DNA from: Ignavibacteria bacterium
Lineage (GTDB): Bacteria > Bacteroidota > Ignavibacteria > Ignavibacteriales > SURF-24
DNA: 64,000 bases
Assembly: GCA_025612245.1 (NCBI GenBank)
Contig: JAAXKQ010000003.1
Coordinates: 321,105 to 385,104 of the forward strand
Reading direction: 5' to 3'
Shown: in pieces, positions 56,047-62,376 of the stretch
Numbering within the stretch: position 1 is the first letter of the stretch
How the letters are laid out: each line of letters starts with the position of its first letter
The notes under the pieces: model-generated
What the model saw: the letters and a program-made list of their open reading frames with translations, nothing else
What the model was told of the DNA's origin: nothing
Databases searched by the model: none
Made by a program: the position numbers and the translations under genes

Positions 56047-58040
56047 GCGATACTGCTAATTATTAACAAAAGATTCTGAATCCAGAAAAGCCAGCGTACG
56101 GAAAGATTCATGCTTCCGCCGTACTGTTCATGAATCAGGTAAGAATTATTTGCGTAATTAAGATCCATTATGTTTTTCCTGAATGGATCTATTTCTGCGC
56201 CAATGACCTTGTTGCGGGTCCTGAAAATCATTTTCTTCCATCTCTCCTCACCGTTCCACTTCTGAAAGAGAGTATCTTTTTCAGTATACAAAGCCACCTC
56301 CTCTTTGAAGGCGCCGTCGCCCAGCCTCTCGGCCATGACCTCATATTCACCGGAATTGCCGGTAGTTTTCACATAATCTATCCTGTAGTCGAATGTAGAT
56401 GAAGACGAGTAAAGGTTTCTAAAAAACCAGCCCATATCCTCACCCGAATGCTTCGCCACCGTACTTATAAAATCTTTTCCCTCGGGATGAGTAAACCTGT
56501 AGGTGTTGAAGAAATCCTTCAGAATCTCCAGCACTTTCTCGCGCCCCAGGTACCTTTCCAGGGAGATCAGCATGAGTTCCGGTTTATAGTAGCCTGAAAC
56601 CGAATAGCTTTCAGTGTCGGGTAGTTTGTATGAAGTATCCGCAATTGCCGATAAAGAAGGGTTTCTGTAGTAGCCTGCAAGTGCCTGCATGCCTTCCGGC
56701 ACCGGATAGCGGCCAAGCGTATAGACCAGCGGAAGCTCACTATAGGAAAGGAAATCCAGTCCGAATACCGGGTAGTAGCCAAAAAGCTTAAAGTTAATGA
56801 GGGCTTTGCCGTAATAATGGTTCAGTATTTTTCCCGTCAGGTACGATGCGAGTCCCTCATCCAGCCAGGCTTCGTAGACTTCATTGTTTGCCACCATTCC
56901 GTAGAAATACTGGTGCGTAAATTCATGGATGGTGACCATTTCAGGCGACAGCGTTTCGAGCGGCGAAAACAGGTCGCTTCTTACCGTAATAAGCCCCGGG
57001 TATTCCATGCCGCGTGAACGGCTCGTCTTCGGCAGATCGACAAGTGTAATTGTCCTGTATGGATACGGCCCAATATATCTTTCAAAAAATGAAAGCGAAT
57101 TTTCTACCGCCTTTATGTAGCGCTCAAGGTATTTTTCGTTCTCGGGCTGCACGTAGGCTTTAATTAAAATCCGGCTCTTGTCGCCTCTTAAGAAGCTCGT
57201 GCTTTTATAAATTATATTATCTGAGGCCATCCAGGCAAAGTCGTGTATGCCGGACTGCCTGAAAGAATATGACGTTCTGCCGCCGCTGATGTTTTTCTTT
57301 TCGGATTCCACCCCGGCTGCTGCAACGCTGTACTTGTCCGGCAAGGTAATTTGTACCTCATAATTCCCGAAATCCGCAAAGAAATTGGTAAAAGGATGGT
57401 ACTCGCTGCATATCCATTCCTTACCCGTAAAGACTCCGGCTTTTATGAACCACTGAGAGATGAAATAAAAATCCCTTCCCGCGGCGTAGCCGAACCTGTG
57501 AAGTGATTTTGGGACGGGCATTCTGTAGGTAAATTTAAGAGTCACAGAATCCCCCGGGTTAACAGGCCTGTCGAGCGCCACCCTGGCTACCGTGCTGTCG
57601 AAAGGGTTCAGTGATTCAGTATGAACGTATTGCATCTCAAGCTTTTTATCACCCAGCAGGATATCCTTAAAAACAATGCCTGAGCGGTAATCGTCCGAAA
57701 ACTCAGATTCACGTCCCTTAAAAAACTGAGTCCTGGAATTCCTGAAAGCGTTTGGATAAAGGTGCAGCATGATTTCTGTGGCGAGACTGCCGGTTTTGTT
57801 TATCCAGGTCATTTCCTCACTGACATTCAGTGTCCGGGAAGAAGGAATAAGTTCAGCTTTGATTTTGTAATTGGCAACAGAAGGGACAGGCGTATTTTCC
57901 AGGATTCCGTTCCTGTAACCTTTTCCTTCAGAAGCCGGGCTGCTGCTTTTGGATAGTAAGCGCTCCCCCCAGCCTGAATTATTCAGGTATGTAAGTCCTG
58001 CAAATACAACAACAACGAAAATGAGTAAGAGTTTCTTCAT
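56043..58040 (-). CDS. M1-family zinc metallopeptidase, membrane-anchored
   Basis: About 665 residues from the ATG at 58040; an upstream extension of 23 residues is rejected as it lacks a good start. The N-terminal MKKLLLIFVVVVFAGLTYL is a signal anchor. The zinc site is HEFTH followed by exactly 18 residues and Glu (WLDEGLASY). Upstream, GMEYPGL replaces the classical GAMEN exopeptidase motif. A hydrophobic C-terminal segment (FWIQNLLLIISS) may be a second membrane helix. The likely role is extracytoplasmic peptide degradation. Confidence 0.88.
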   Translation of the reverse strand: MKKLLLIFVVVVFAGLTYLNNSGWGERLLSKSSSPASEGKGYRNGILENTPVPSVANYKIKAELIPSSRTLNVSEEMTWINKTGSLATEIMLHLYPNAFRNSRTQFFKGRESEFSDDYRSGIVFKDILLGDKKLEMQYVHTESLNPFDSTVARVALDRPVNPGDSVTLKFTYRMPVPKSLHRFGYAAGRDFYFISQWFIKAGVFTGKEWICSEYHPFTNFFADFGNYEVQITLPDKYSVAAAGVESEKKNISGGRTSYSFRQSGIHDFAWMASDNIIYKSTSFLRGDKSRILIKAYVQPENEKYLERYIKAVENSLSFFERYIGPYPYRTITLVDLPKTSRSRGMEYPGLITVRSDLFSPLETLSPEMVTIHEFTHQYFYGMVANNEVYEAWLDEGLASYLTGKILNHYYGKALINFKLFGYYPVFGLDFLSYSELPLVYTLGRYPVPEGMQALAGYYRNPSLSAIADTSYKLPDTESYSVSGYYKPELMLISLERYLGREKVLEILKDFFNTYRFTHPEGKDFISTVAKHSGEDMGWFFRNLYSSSSTFDYRIDYVKTTGNSGEYEVMAERLGDGAFKEEVALYTEKDTLFQKWNGEERWKKMIFRTRNKVIGAEIDPFRKNIMDLNYANNSYLIHEQYGGSMNLSVRWLFWIQNLLLIISSIA

Positions 58041-58212
58041 TGCCCGTTTATCTGATTTTTGTTCTTTCCAAGCGCCAATTATAAAAACTGCCTGGTCAAA
58101 AATAAGCACGTTTTTGCGTTAAAACAAAATGACGCTCCTATAATAATTTCCGGCAGGAGCACGAATGGTACGGGGGGGATAAGTTGTGAATTTTAAGTTT
58201 CGAATGGGGGGA

Positions 58213-58243
58213 AATAAAAAACCCGCCATTTTCTGGCGGGTTT
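58213..58243 (-). terminator. Rho-independent terminator after the distal hsp20
   Basis: On the minus strand AACCCGCCA-GAAAA-TGGCGGGTT is followed directly by TTTTATTT. It ends the heat-shock cluster, 15 bp after the stop codon. Confidence 0.9.
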
Positions 58244-58257
58244 CAAGAAAGGAGATA

Positions 58258-58656
58258 TTACTTTATCTCTATTGTTTTGGGTTTTAATCTTTCGTGTTTC
58301 GGCATGTGTATAATAAGCTGTCCGTTTTCCAGACGGGCGTCTATCTTCGAATCATCCACACCGTCGGAAATGTGGAACTTGCGGTAAAAGTTGCCTATCT
58401 GTGTCTCATTGAGAATATATCTCTGGCTGATCCTTTCGTTGTAATCAATCCTGCCCATAATTATCAGGTCGCCGTCTTCAAGCTTTATCCTTACATTCTC
58501 CTTTGAAACTCCGGGCATATCGGCAATTAACGTATAGGCTTCATCTGTTTCATATATGTCTACCAAAGGACCAACCCAGCTTTCTTTTTCCAGCGCTTCA
58601 TCCCAGGTGGTCTTCTGTGTTTCCTGTACCTGAACGAGATCCTTATTGTTTTCCAT
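58258..58656 (-). CDS. Small heat-shock protein Hsp20 (distal copy)
   Basis: A 132-residue alpha-crystallin-domain chaperone. The ATG at 58656 follows a perfect AGGAGG; a longer frame of 14 residues is rejected. The alpha-crystallin domain runs from about YETDEAYTLIADMPGVSKENVRIKL (in parts) to NGQLIIHMPK. It begins with a polar N-terminal region (ENNKDLVQVQETQKTTWDE). It is the last gene of the hsp20-dnaK-hsp20 cluster and lies 153 bp after dnaK. Confidence 0.93.
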   Translation of the reverse strand: MENNKDLVQVQETQKTTWDEALEKESWVGPLVDIYETDEAYTLIADMPGVSKENVRIKLEDGDLIIMGRIDYNERISQRYILNETQIGNFYRKFHISDGVDDSKIDARLENGQLIIHMPKHERLKPKTIEIK

Positions 58657-58768
58657 TTTTCTCCTCCTTTGTAAAATATTTATTTTTATAAAACTCATAG
58701 TTATACCGGTTCTGAAATCATTATTTCAAACTTTTTTTGTAAACTGACAGGAAAGTAATTTTTTAGAT

Positions 58769-58801
58769 CAGCAGGGCAGATTTTTTAAGTCCGCCCTGCT
58801 G
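58769..58801 (-). terminator. Hairpin after dnaK
   Basis: CAGCAGGGC pairs with GCCCTGCTG around a 15-nt loop, just after the dnaK stop at 58810. No U-run follows, so partial read-through into the downstream hsp20 is possible. Confidence 0.55.
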
Positions 58802-58809
58802 CAGAATGA

Positions 58810-60759
58810 TTATTGTTTCTTCTTATTTTTCTCTTCATCATCAACAACCTCGTAGGAAGCATCCTGCACGTCTTTTTCTTTACCTGCCTCCTGCTGCTGC
58901 TGCTGGCTGCTGCCCTGAGCACCTGCGCCCGGCTGTCCCTGTGCGCCCTGTTGTGCGCCAGCCTGCTGGTACATCTGGGAGGCAACTTCGTTCCAGACCT
59001 TGTTGAGTGAATCGGTTGCAGCCTTAATGTTATCCGTATTATTGCTTGCAATAGCGTCTTCAACTTTCTTGATTTCGCTTTCAAGCCTGTTCCTGGAATC
59101 GGCCGAGATCTTATCCTTCATTTCATCAAGCTGCTTTTTTGTCTGGAAGACAAGATTGTCGGCCTGGTTCTTGATCTCGATCCCTTCTTTTCTCTTTTTA
59201 TCCTCTGCTGCATGAGCCTTGGCGGCATTTTTCATATTTTCGATTTCGTCCTTGCTCAAGCCGCTGGAAGATGTGATCCTGATGCTCTGCTCTTTTCCGG
59301 TACCACGGTCCTTTGCACTTACGTGCAGAATACCGTTTGCATCTATGTCAAATGTCACTTCAATCTGAGGAATGCCCCTTGGTGCAGGCGGAATTCCATC
59401 CAGGTGGAAGCGGCCCAAACTTCTGTTGTCCGAGGCCATCGACCTTTCGCCCTGCAGAACGTGGATTTCAACCGAGGGCTGACTGTCGCTTGCCGTTGAA
59501 AATATTTCGCTCTTCTTCGTCGGTATTGTCGTATTTGAGGGAATCAGTGCAGTCATAACTCCACCCAGGGTTTCAATACCAAGCGACAAAGGAGTAACAT
59601 CCAGCAAGAGGACGTCCTTTACGTCGCCTGTCAGTACGCCGCCCTGAATAGAGGCACCGATAGCAACAACTTCATCGGGGTTAACACCCTTGTGAGGCTC
59701 CTTGTTAAATAACTTCTTTACGAGTTCCTGTACTTTCGGAACTCTTGTAGACCCGCCGACTAAAATAACCTCATCTATCTGTGAAGGAGTTACACCGGCA
59801 TCGCGCATAGCTTTTTCGCAGGGTCCTGCTGTTCTTTCGATCAGGTCGTCGATGAGCTGTTCGAATTTAGCGCGTGAGATCGTGATATTTAAGTGTTTAG
59901 GACCTTCCTGTGTAGCTGTAATAAAAGGCAGATTAACGTCTGTCTGCAGAGAGTTGGACAGTTCTATCTTTGCCTTTTCAGCCGCTTCTTTGAGTCTCTG
60001 GAGGGCCATCGGGTCTTTTCTAAGGTCGATGCCTTCCTGTTTGTTGAATTCATCGGCCAGAAAGTCGATAAGCCTCTGGTCAAAGTCATCGCCGCCAAGA
60101 TGTCCGTCACCGTTGGTGGACTTAACCTCAAAAACTCCCTCGCCAAGCTGGAGTATTGAAACGTCGAATGTACCGCCGCCAAGGTCGTAGACGGCAACAA
60201 GCTCGTCTTTACCCTTTTTGTCGAGGCCGTATGCCAGCGCTGCGGCAGTAGGTTCGTTGATTATTCTTCTGACCTTAAGGCCTGCGATCTCACCGGCGTC
60301 CTTGGTAGCCTGACGCTGTGAATCGTTGAAGTAAGCCGGAACCGTAATAACTGCTTCGGTTACTTCCTGGCCAAGGTAATCTTCGGCCGTCTTCTTCATC
60401 TTCTGAAGAATCATTGCACTGATTTCAGGTGGGGAATATACCCTGTCACCTATCTTAACACGTGCTGAGTTAGCGTCACCGGAAACGACCTGATAAGGCA
60501 CTTTTGTCATCTCCGAGGTAACCTCATCCATCCTTCTACCCATGAATCTCTTTATAGAAAAGACTGTATTCTTCGGGTTCGTCACAGCCTGGCGCTTAGC
60601 AGCCTGGCCTACAAGTCTTTCTCCGTTTTTTGTAAAAGCAACTATAGATGGAGTTGTTCTACCGCCTTCGGAGTTGGGAATAACCACCGGGTCGTTACCT
60701 TCCATGACAGCTACGCACGAGTTAGTAGTACCCAAGTCAATTCCTATTATTTTTCCCAT
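58810..60759 (-). CDS. dnaK: Molecular chaperone DnaK (Hsp70)
   Basis: A 649-residue ATP-dependent chaperone with [14 protein letters not shown] at the N-terminus, [13 protein letters not shown], and [14 protein letters not shown], the three DnaK signatures. The substrate-binding domain follows and the tail is low-complexity, rich in Gln, Gly and Ala ([15 protein letters not shown]), ending [13 protein letters not shown]. There is no dnaJ or grpE next to it; instead it is flanked by two hsp20 genes on the same strand. Confidence 0.98.
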
Positions 60760-60789
60760 TCTTAATCTCCCCTTTCTTTGTTAGTAATT

Positions 60790-60825
60790 GCGGCAGAAAC
60801 CGGTTTGGGATTGACTTTCTGCCGC
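60790..60825 (-). other. Perfect hairpin between hsp20 and dnaK
   Basis: A perfect 10-bp stem (GCGGCAGAAA / TTTCTGCCGC) with a 16-nt loop in the 83-bp gap between the proximal hsp20 stop and the dnaK start. It has no U-run. It could be a processing or stability site that sets different levels of the two chaperones. Confidence 0.6.
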
Positions 60826-60842
60826 CCTTCTCATGCCATAAG

Positions 60843-61277
60843 TTATGACAATTTTATTTCTTTTTCGTTGACGGGTTTCGGATTGATCTTTTCCATTTTG
60901 ACCATCAGTGTACCGTCCTCGAATTTTGCGTCAACTTTATCAGAATCTACCTCAACAGGCAGCGTAAAACTTCTGGTAAAAGTGCCGTATGTCCTCTCGT
61001 TCCTGTAGAAATTTTTATCCTTCTGCTCTTCGACTCTCCTCTTTTCACCCTTGAGTGTAAGAATATTGTCGTGGAGCGTTATCTTTAAGTCCTCTTTCCG
61101 GATTCCCGGCAGCTCGGCTTCAACATAAAGATGTGTGTCATCTTCTGAAATGTCTATCCTCGGACTGAAAGCGCCCGAAAGATCCATACCGAATCCCGGA
61201 AAGTCTTCAAAGTATCTCTGAATACGGCTGCTGAAATTTTCCAACTCTTTCAAAGGTTCAAATTTCATGATTGACAT
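60843..61277 (-). CDS. Small heat-shock protein Hsp20 (proximal copy)
   Basis: A 144-residue alpha-crystallin chaperone, the first gene of the cluster. AGGAGG precedes the ATG by about eight bases. The domain starts near PRIDISEDDTHLYVEAELPGI and ends with GTLMVKMEKIN. It holds unfolding proteins for DnaK. Upstream lies the sigma-54-type promoter described separately. This copy differs clearly from the distal one, so the pair is not a recent duplication. Confidence 0.95.
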   Translation of the reverse strand: MSIMKFEPLKELENFSSRIQRYFEDFPGFGMDLSGAFSPRIDISEDDTHLYVEAELPGIRKEDLKITLHDNILTLKGEKRRVEEQKDKNFYRNERTYGTFTRSFTLPVEVDSDKVDAKFEDGTLMVKMEKINPKPVNEKEIKLS

Positions 61278-61315
61278 ATTCTAATCCTCCTTTTTTATTT
61301 CTACGCTATTAGATG

Positions 61316-61332
61316 TACAAGCTCCGTGCCAA
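61316..61332 (-). promoter_or_regulatory. Sigma-54-type (-24/-12) promoter of the heat-shock cluster
   Basis: On the minus strand TTGGCACG-GAGC-TTGTA matches the consensus YTGGCACG-N4-TTGCW in all core positions except C to T in the -12 element. The predicted transcript start is near 61305, giving a leader of about 28 nt with AGGAGG near 61286. No CIRCE (HrcA) site is present. Confidence 0.6.
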
Positions 61333-61395
61333 ACTAATTTTCTGCAAAAACAGCGCCTTTTTGCGCTTTAGAATTCTTCTCCTTTTTCCAGGTAC

Positions 61396-61446
61396 GACAA
61401 ATTGTCAGAAATTCCGTCAATTTGTCGCTTATGATGACAAATTGTC
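61396..61446. promoter_or_regulatory. Three inverted repeats with exact 20-bp spacing
   Basis: GACAAATTGTC at 61396-61406, GTCAATTTGTC at 61416-61426 (one mismatch in the arm) and GACAAATTGTC at 61436-61446. Centres are about 96, 116 and 136 bp upstream of the predicted sigma-54 start of hsp20. This is the usual location of upstream activator sites bound by enhancer-binding proteins. Confidence 0.65.
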
Positions 61447-61536
61447 AGATTTCGTGCACGCTTACAAAAAAAACAGTCCTGGAATTATTGGACTGATCAG
61501 TGCTCCATGAAAAGAAAAAGAGCTGCAGGCTAAAGG

Positions 61537-61542
61537 TATAAT
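61537..61542 (+). promoter_or_regulatory. Candidate -10 element for birA
   Basis: TATAAT at 61537-61542 lies 61 bp upstream of birA, without a clear -35. A TAnnTTTG element (TAAATTTG at 61574-61581), the Bacteroidota -7 type, is an alternative closer to the gene. Confidence 0.25.
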
Positions 61543-61602
61543 AATTGAATTTTTATTTCTCCCCTGCAATTGCTAAATTTGTGGAAATAATCGAGGTAGA
61601 AT

Positions 61603-62376
61603 TTGTTCAATTTTGAAAATTTTGAGATAAAGCTGGATACCGATGTAATCGGCAGAAACTTTATCTATTGCGAGGAAGTGGAATCTACAAATGCCGAACT
61701 CCTCAATGAAGAAAACGGCATTGACATAGACGGAACCGTGCTGCTTGCCGAAAAACAAAATAACGGCAAGGGCAGAAAGGACAGGAAATGGTACAGCGCA
61801 AAGGATCAGAACCTGACTTTTTCAATTCTCCTGAAAAGGAAAATTAGTGAAAGGAAGGTCAACCTGGTCAACTTTGCAGCAGCTCTTGCAGTCTCCTATA
61901 CACTGGAAAACCTGTTCCAGATAAGGGTTAACCTCAAATGGCCGAATGACGTTTTAATCGGCCACTCAAAAATTTCCGGAATTCTTATTGAATCCACTAT
62001 CAGGGGTAGCAAGATCAATAAGCTGGTAATAGGAATAGGCTTTAACGTTAACCAGATTGCCTTCCAGGGAAGCTATATCATACCCCCTACTTCAATCCGC
62101 AAAGAGCTCAACCAGGAAGTCGACAGAGAAAGAGTTTTAAGCGACCTGCTGAATAACTTCGAGGACCTCCTGAACCGGGTGGACGAGAACCCAGAAGGTG
62201 TACTTAACGACTGGAAAGACCGCTGCCGGATGCTTGGCGAGAAGATCATGATACAGGATGAGAATTATTCAAAAAGCGGAATCTTTGAAGACGTCGATGA
62301 ACAGGGATTTCTCATGCTCAGAACGGACAGGGATACCGTGGAAAAGATCCATTTCGGGGATGTGAGCCTGCGCTGA
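61603..62376 (+). CDS. birA: Biotin--[acetyl-CoA-carboxylase] ligase
   Basis: A 257-residue biotin protein ligase without the DNA-binding repressor domain of E. coli BirA. Motifs: CEEVESTNAELL, AEKQNNGKGRKDRKWYS (ligand-binding loop), LKWPNDVLI, and KISGILIES. The start is TTG at 61603 with GAGGT five bases upstream. It is the first of three plus-strand genes (birA-coaX-cysteine desulfurase). Confidence 0.94.
   Translation: MFNFENFEIKLDTDVIGRNFIYCEEVESTNAELLNEENGIDIDGTVLLAEKQNNGKGRKDRKWYSAKDQNLTFSILLKRKISERKVNLVNFAAALAVSYTLENLFQIRVNLKWPNDVLIGHSKISGILIESTIRGSKINKLVIGIGFNVNQIAFQGSYIIPPTSIRKELNQEVDRERVLSDLLNNFEDLLNRVDENPEGVLNDWKDRCRMLGEKIMIQDENYSKSGIFEDVDEQGFLMLRTDRDTVEKIHFGDVSLR

Follow-up and report, generated by a model that had tools for sequence, protein, structure and literature searches.

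Sigma-54 promoters have been predicted for the genes of GroEL, IbpA, GroES, GrpE, DnaJ and DnaK in Bacteroidota and Planctomycetota in a comparative survey published in 2025 (PLoS One; PMC12316311), and E. coli ibpB has been reported as a sigma-54-transcribed gene (cited in PMC4370416). Here we analyse an hsp20-dnaK-hsp20 operon on the minus strand of a 64,000-nt stretch from an Ignavibacteria bacterium (GenBank assembly GCA_025612245.1, contig JAAXKQ010000003.1, positions 321,105 to 385,104; hereafter the window). Judged from the sequence, this operon is very likely controlled by sigma-54 together with an enhancer-binding protein (EBP), and its transcription by the sigma-54 polymerase as such appears highly probable.

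Promoter element and its conservation

The predicted promoter is the following element:

61316-61332, minus strand: -24/-12 (sigma-54) promoter element TTGGCACG-gagc-TTGTA, supported by the sequence and by the same element and spacing in relatives

An earlier note on this DNA had proposed such an element upstream of hsp20-dnaK-hsp20, and it is indeed present and conserved in relatives. Read on the minus strand, TTGGCACG-N4-TTGTA lies 54 bp ahead of the hsp20 ATG, with a predicted +1 near 61305, and joins TGGCA(C/T) to TTG(C) at the fixed spacing of a sigma-54 promoter (ten bases from GG to the -12 G). Its core, TGGCACGGAGCTTGTA (61316-61331), fits TGGCACG-N4-TTGCW with one mismatch, a T replacing the C of the -12 GC; the 64-kb window has only one other such match. 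Across the whole 4.84-Mb genome, TGGCAC-N5-TTGYW has seven exact matches, compared with eight for the reversed pattern used as control, so the element is not proven by its sequence alone. This count is what speaks for regarding the elements as chance, or for a vegetative promoter driving the operon while the -24/-12 element has another role. We give that explanation very little credence, since dozens of genomes keep the element with its spacing unchanged, no CIRCE (controlling inverted repeat of chaperone expression) occurs at the operon, and the region is no richer than shuffled sequence in sigma-70 promoter matches, none of which falls between the upstream array described below and the ATG.

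Conservation is what makes the sigma-54 element convincing. Of 89 distinct sequences upstream of hsp20 in relatives, 52 contain GGCAY-N5-TTG, where shuffles predict 0.2; with N4 the count is 0, with N6 it is 2, and every other spacing gives at most 3. Among the 30 best orthologous loci of the order, nearly all carry a TGGCA-type element 45-101 bp before the match start, which is weak in two or three of them. At the position of the C in the -12 GC, 68 hsp20 promoters have T in 43 cases, A in 12 and C in 9; the TTGTA of the window is thus typical of hsp20 promoters in the class, and the T may affect promoter silencing. Two loci from KSB1 (L136 and L138) combine a canonical TTGCT -12 element with upstream TGNCA half-sites. 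Another group of hsp20 genes (L133-L135, L137) has TGACA/TCAG repeats directly upstream of TGGCACG-N4-TCGTA, a possible sigma-54 element, just 5' of the match start.

Enhancer array and half-site lattice

Upstream of the promoter, three palindromes form an array:

61435-61447, minus strand: predicted enhancer site 1, TGACAATTTGTCA, a pair of TGNCA half-sites offset by 8 bp, centre near -136; kept in the sister species G001
61415-61427, minus strand: predicted enhancer site 2, CGACAAATTGACG, imperfect, centre near -116; G001 counterpart CGACAAAATGACA
61395-61407, minus strand: predicted enhancer site 3, TGACAATTTGTCG, centre near -96; G001 counterpart TGACAAAATGTCA

The earlier note had described these as three GACAA-N-TTGTC repeats exactly 20 bp apart, about 95-135 bp upstream of the predicted start. 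Positions, spacing and distance from the start proved correct. The two outer sites, which read CGACAAATTGTCA (61395-61407) and TGACAAATTGTCA (61435-61447) on the plus strand, have the proposed sequence, whereas the middle one, CGTCAATTTGTCG (61415-61427), is imperfect and differs in sequence. The conserved unit is also broader than GACAA-N-TTGTC: the palindromes are 13 bp long, take the form TGNCA-N3-TGNCA and keep a register of exactly 20 bp, so that the TGNCA half-site sits on a lattice of 8 + 12 = 20 bp. Scored as three sites at the 20-bp register, the window reaches 21 of 24, and the maximum in 5000 Markov shuffles was 17.

The hsp20 promoter holds the genome's single copy of the perfect palindrome TGACAANTTGTCA. 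Allowing up to one mismatch yields two matches there and 10 scattered across the genome, none of which forms a comparable array or precedes a chaperone gene. One of these 10, a single TGACAATTTGTGA site, lies 69 bp ahead of dnaA (L051:1501-1513; G000 contig C9) with neither an array nor a sigma-54 element, and is probably there by chance.

The same architecture extends across the class, where both the -24/-12 element and the repeats are kept upstream of orthologous operons. The 68 promoters contain 192 upstream TGNCA half-sites against 51 expected, with at least one in 66 of them; the half-sites concentrate 80-140 bp upstream of the -24 element, with peaks near 90 and 130 bp. Measured from start to start, the distances between them show an excess at 8, 12, 20, 21, 32, 40 and 41 bp and at no other value, the pattern given by half-site pairs with an 8-bp offset that recur at intervals of 20-21 bp (12 = 20 - 8; 32 = 40 - 8). 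The window has the full form of this lattice, and many relatives retain only part of it. Three sites are kept 20 bp apart in G001 and 21 bp apart in G004, and divergent hsp20 genes in another family of the order show the same arrangement of promoter and array. In about 1.6 Mb of sequence, a search for a sigma-54 element with at least three upstream TGNCA half-sites returned hsp20 genes with very few exceptions, a sample enriched for hsp20 loci in which specificity is shown only roughly. The combination was not found at clpB, clpC or groESL.

Repeated palindromic sites in helical phase some 80-150 bp upstream are the hallmark of an upstream activating sequence (UAS), and the array very probably binds an activator. 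It could alternatively be the operator of a separate repressor or of an activator that is not an EBP, with the sigma-54 promoter activated from other sites. The link between an EBP and this motif is indirect, which leaves some room for such an operator. Placement 80-140 bp upstream and a 20-bp lattice are what EBP enhancers typically show, however, and no other conserved array was seen further upstream; we consider the alternative improbable.

Many relatives outside the window's family (L072, L027, L038, L115, L147 and others) also carry a dyad, TAACTTATT-N5-AATAAGTTA, about 16 bp upstream of the -24 element, a position that would suit a bending site of the IHF type. TAACTTAT is found in 13 of the 68 promoters, with 0.4 expected. 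In the window's family the dyad is missing, and another inverted repeat occupies roughly that position.

Regulatory setting of the genome

Both components expected of a sigma-54 circuit, which the earlier note had named as a check, are encoded in the genome: one intact rpoN with its AID, core-binding and DNA-binding domains, and 15 strong EBPs. With promoter and lattice conserved and rpoN and EBPs present, the prediction of a sigma-54/EBP-driven operon is well supported. The genome also encodes hrcA, and a CIRCE element, TTAGCACTT-N9-GAGTGCTAA, precedes groESL (L168:1057-1083; G000 contig C14), which is separate from the dnaK operon. No CIRCE was found in window positions 58001-62000 with up to five substitutions allowed, and HrcA/CIRCE control of hsp20-dnaK-hsp20 was rejected on that ground. 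Given rpoN, the EBPs, a single dnaK, and hrcA with CIRCE only before groESL, chaperone control looks split, with groESL under HrcA and hsp20-dnaK-hsp20 under sigma-54. To our knowledge rpoH is absent from this group; no search for it was made in this genome.

Candidate activator and proposed mechanism

The promoter is also present in G027, a relative whose 2.7-Mb genome encodes only seven EBPs. Six of them are orthologous (57-69% identity) to L003, L004, L006, L007, L008 and L011 of the window genome. Among these, L007 (G000:C18:122413-123522), a PspF-like EBP in the miaB-lptE neighbourhood, comprises AAA+, lid and linker regions and a Fis-type helix-turn-helix (HTH), has no receiver or sensor domain, and retains an intact GAFTGA loop. 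The resemblance to PspF is one of architecture only, as its score of 279 bits against a curated cut-off of 443.55 does not make it a PspF orthologue. When the L007 protein was used as query, a clear best match was present in almost every one of the Ignavibacteriales tested, and proteins resembling it turned up throughout the phylum; outside the class many of the best matches span the AAA+ part alone, so orthology there may not hold in every genome. The order miaB-EBP-lptE is kept in most neighbourhoods compared, among them two from distant families, and across 14 aligned proteins the recognition helix, ERTLYRK, hardly varies. In G301, a distant member of the Bacteroidota with at most three matches in the L007 search, the TGNCA palindromes TGACGGATTGTCA and TGACAAAATGTCT precede hsp20 (p ~0.003). 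Its sharing with G027, its wide occurrence in the phylum, its synteny and nearly invariant helix, and the palindromes in the EBP-poor G301 make L007 the leading candidate activator, an assignment from sequence to which we attach somewhat less than even confidence. Elimination through EBP-poor genomes is of limited reach, as several of them have no hsp20.

The five other EBPs shared with G027 (62-69% identity) each have receiver, AAA+ and HTH domains, and the array may instead be bound by one of these NtrC-type proteins working with a kinase partner at an equally real sigma-54 promoter. We regard this as a possibility to be taken seriously, if not the expected one, with L003, L004 and L011 as its main candidates. 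The L006 and L008 types are less likely, as, by eye, L006 lies among flagellar genes and L008 beside cytochrome genes; G301, which still has the array at hsp20 with at most three EBP-like matches, also argues against an NtrC-type activator.

Several observations weigh against sigma-54/EBP control of the operon or against L007 as its activator. The -12 GC reads GT in the window promoter, and C is only a minority base at this position in the relatives (9 of 68), both unusual for sigma-54. The sigma-54 start of hsp20-dnaK-hsp20 is a prediction from sequence, and the upstream regions of G111 and G114 are suggestive and not significant. In 80 relatives the 4 kb or so around the hsp operon contain no EBP gene, no array was found at L007's own gene, and a search for TGNCA near EBP genes gave nothing convincing. 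Moreover, several genomes carry the candidate EBP without hsp20, so that it would need other targets.

Under sigma-54/EBP control, sigma-54 RNA polymerase would wait in a closed complex at 61316-61332 and transcribe hsp20-dnaK-hsp20 from there. An AAA+ EBP, as dimers or higher oligomers, would sit on the three sites 96-136 bp upstream, each dimer covering two TGNCA half-sites 8 bp apart and its neighbour lying 20 bp on, some two turns of the helix, along the same face of the DNA. Once freed or activated by a stress signal, the bound EBP would reach the polymerase through DNA looping, spend ATP and open the promoter. Release by titration of an inhibitor has analogies in PspF/PspA and in the control of sigma-32 by DnaK. 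By that analogy a sensorless EBP might be kept inactive by some partner, perhaps a chaperone drawn away by misfolded protein, a speculative scheme that we consider rather unlikely. Similarly doubtful is the broader proposal that the lptE-adjacent sensorless EBP is the ancestral master activator of cytosolic chaperones in Bacteroidota, replacing sigma-32 and switched by chaperone titration, not by phosphorylation.

Organization of the operon

On the minus strand, the three palindromes are followed by a GC-rich inverted repeat, the -24/-12 element, AGGAGG and the ATG at 61277; the short leader with AGGAGG pointed out earlier is thus in place. The remaining features are:

61352-61367, minus strand: GC-rich inverted repeat AGCGC-aaaaag-GCGCT between array and promoter, from the sequence
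61286-61291, minus strand: ribosome-binding site AGGAGG, from the sequence
60843-61277, minus strand: hsp20 gene 1, small heat-shock protein of 144 aa
60790-60825, minus strand: GC-rich intercistronic hairpin GCGGCAGAAA...TTTCTGCCGC without a U-tract, in the hsp20/dnaK gap, from the sequence
58810-60759, minus strand: dnaK, 649 aa, with no second copy found in the genome
58258-58698, minus strand: hsp20 gene 2, whose start is possibly an internal ATG 42 nt further downstream
58218-58244, minus strand: terminator-like hairpin ending the operon, 11 pairs followed by a T-rich stretch

Hairpins of other sequence occupy the hsp20/dnaK gap in many relatives (mean folding z -1.3 over 49 intergenic sequences), and the intergenic hairpin may set the hsp20:dnaK ratio. 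The gene on the opposite side of the promoter is divergent and, by eye, birA-like.

Comparison with known systems

No paper joining Ignavibacteria, RpoN and heat shock was found among those searched, the text of a Desulfovibrio sigma-54 regulome paper gives no hsp target, and our searches brought up no established heat-shock activator in Bacteroidota. The nearest precedent (PMC12316311) concerns the same phylum and shares the idea of sigma-54 heat-shock promoters. It differs in that the sections consulted name Flavobacteriia, Bacteroidia and Cytophagia without mentioning Ignavibacteria and describe neither an enhancer array nor an activator for chaperone genes; in the window genome, moreover, groESL is the CIRCE-bearing gene. 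The E. coli case is likewise a small heat-shock protein gene under sigma-54, but sigma-32 also transcribes ibpAB, whereas the operon in the window contains the only dnaK and has a phased three-site array found class-wide. The earlier note's reading of a sigma-54/EBP circuit is supported, and two of the refuting conditions that it named, an absent rpoN and a lack of conservation, do not hold. The circuit is less exceptional than the note supposed, given that sigma-54 heat-shock control had already been predicted in Bacteroidota and reported for E. coli ibpB.

The phage-shock operon offers a parallel in its activator: PspF is also a receiver-less EBP composed of AAA+ and HTH domains, acting on a stress-protein target from a UAS upstream of a sigma-54 promoter. 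The candidate described here differs in scoring far under the PspF cut-off, in adjoining lptE, and in having no PspA-like partner identified. HrcA/CIRCE, a common form of chaperone control in bacteria, is present in the window genome at groESL, with no CIRCE at hsp20-dnaK-hsp20. Because a sigma-54 promoter stays silent until its activator acts, placing the only dnaK behind one would amount to unusually tight control of an important chaperone.

The principle of sigma-54 heat-shock control is already known; what is new, as far as we have found, is the class-wide promoter anatomy, the 20-bp enhancer lattice and the candidate activator, which together offer an operator code (TGNCA half-sites, 8 + 12 bp) and an activator to pursue across Bacteroidota. 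In the mostly uncultured Ignavibacteria this chaperone operon is probably switched on by an activator, in place of the customary control through sigma-32 or HrcA; if confirmed, this would represent a third type of chaperone control, serving a large uncultured lineage.
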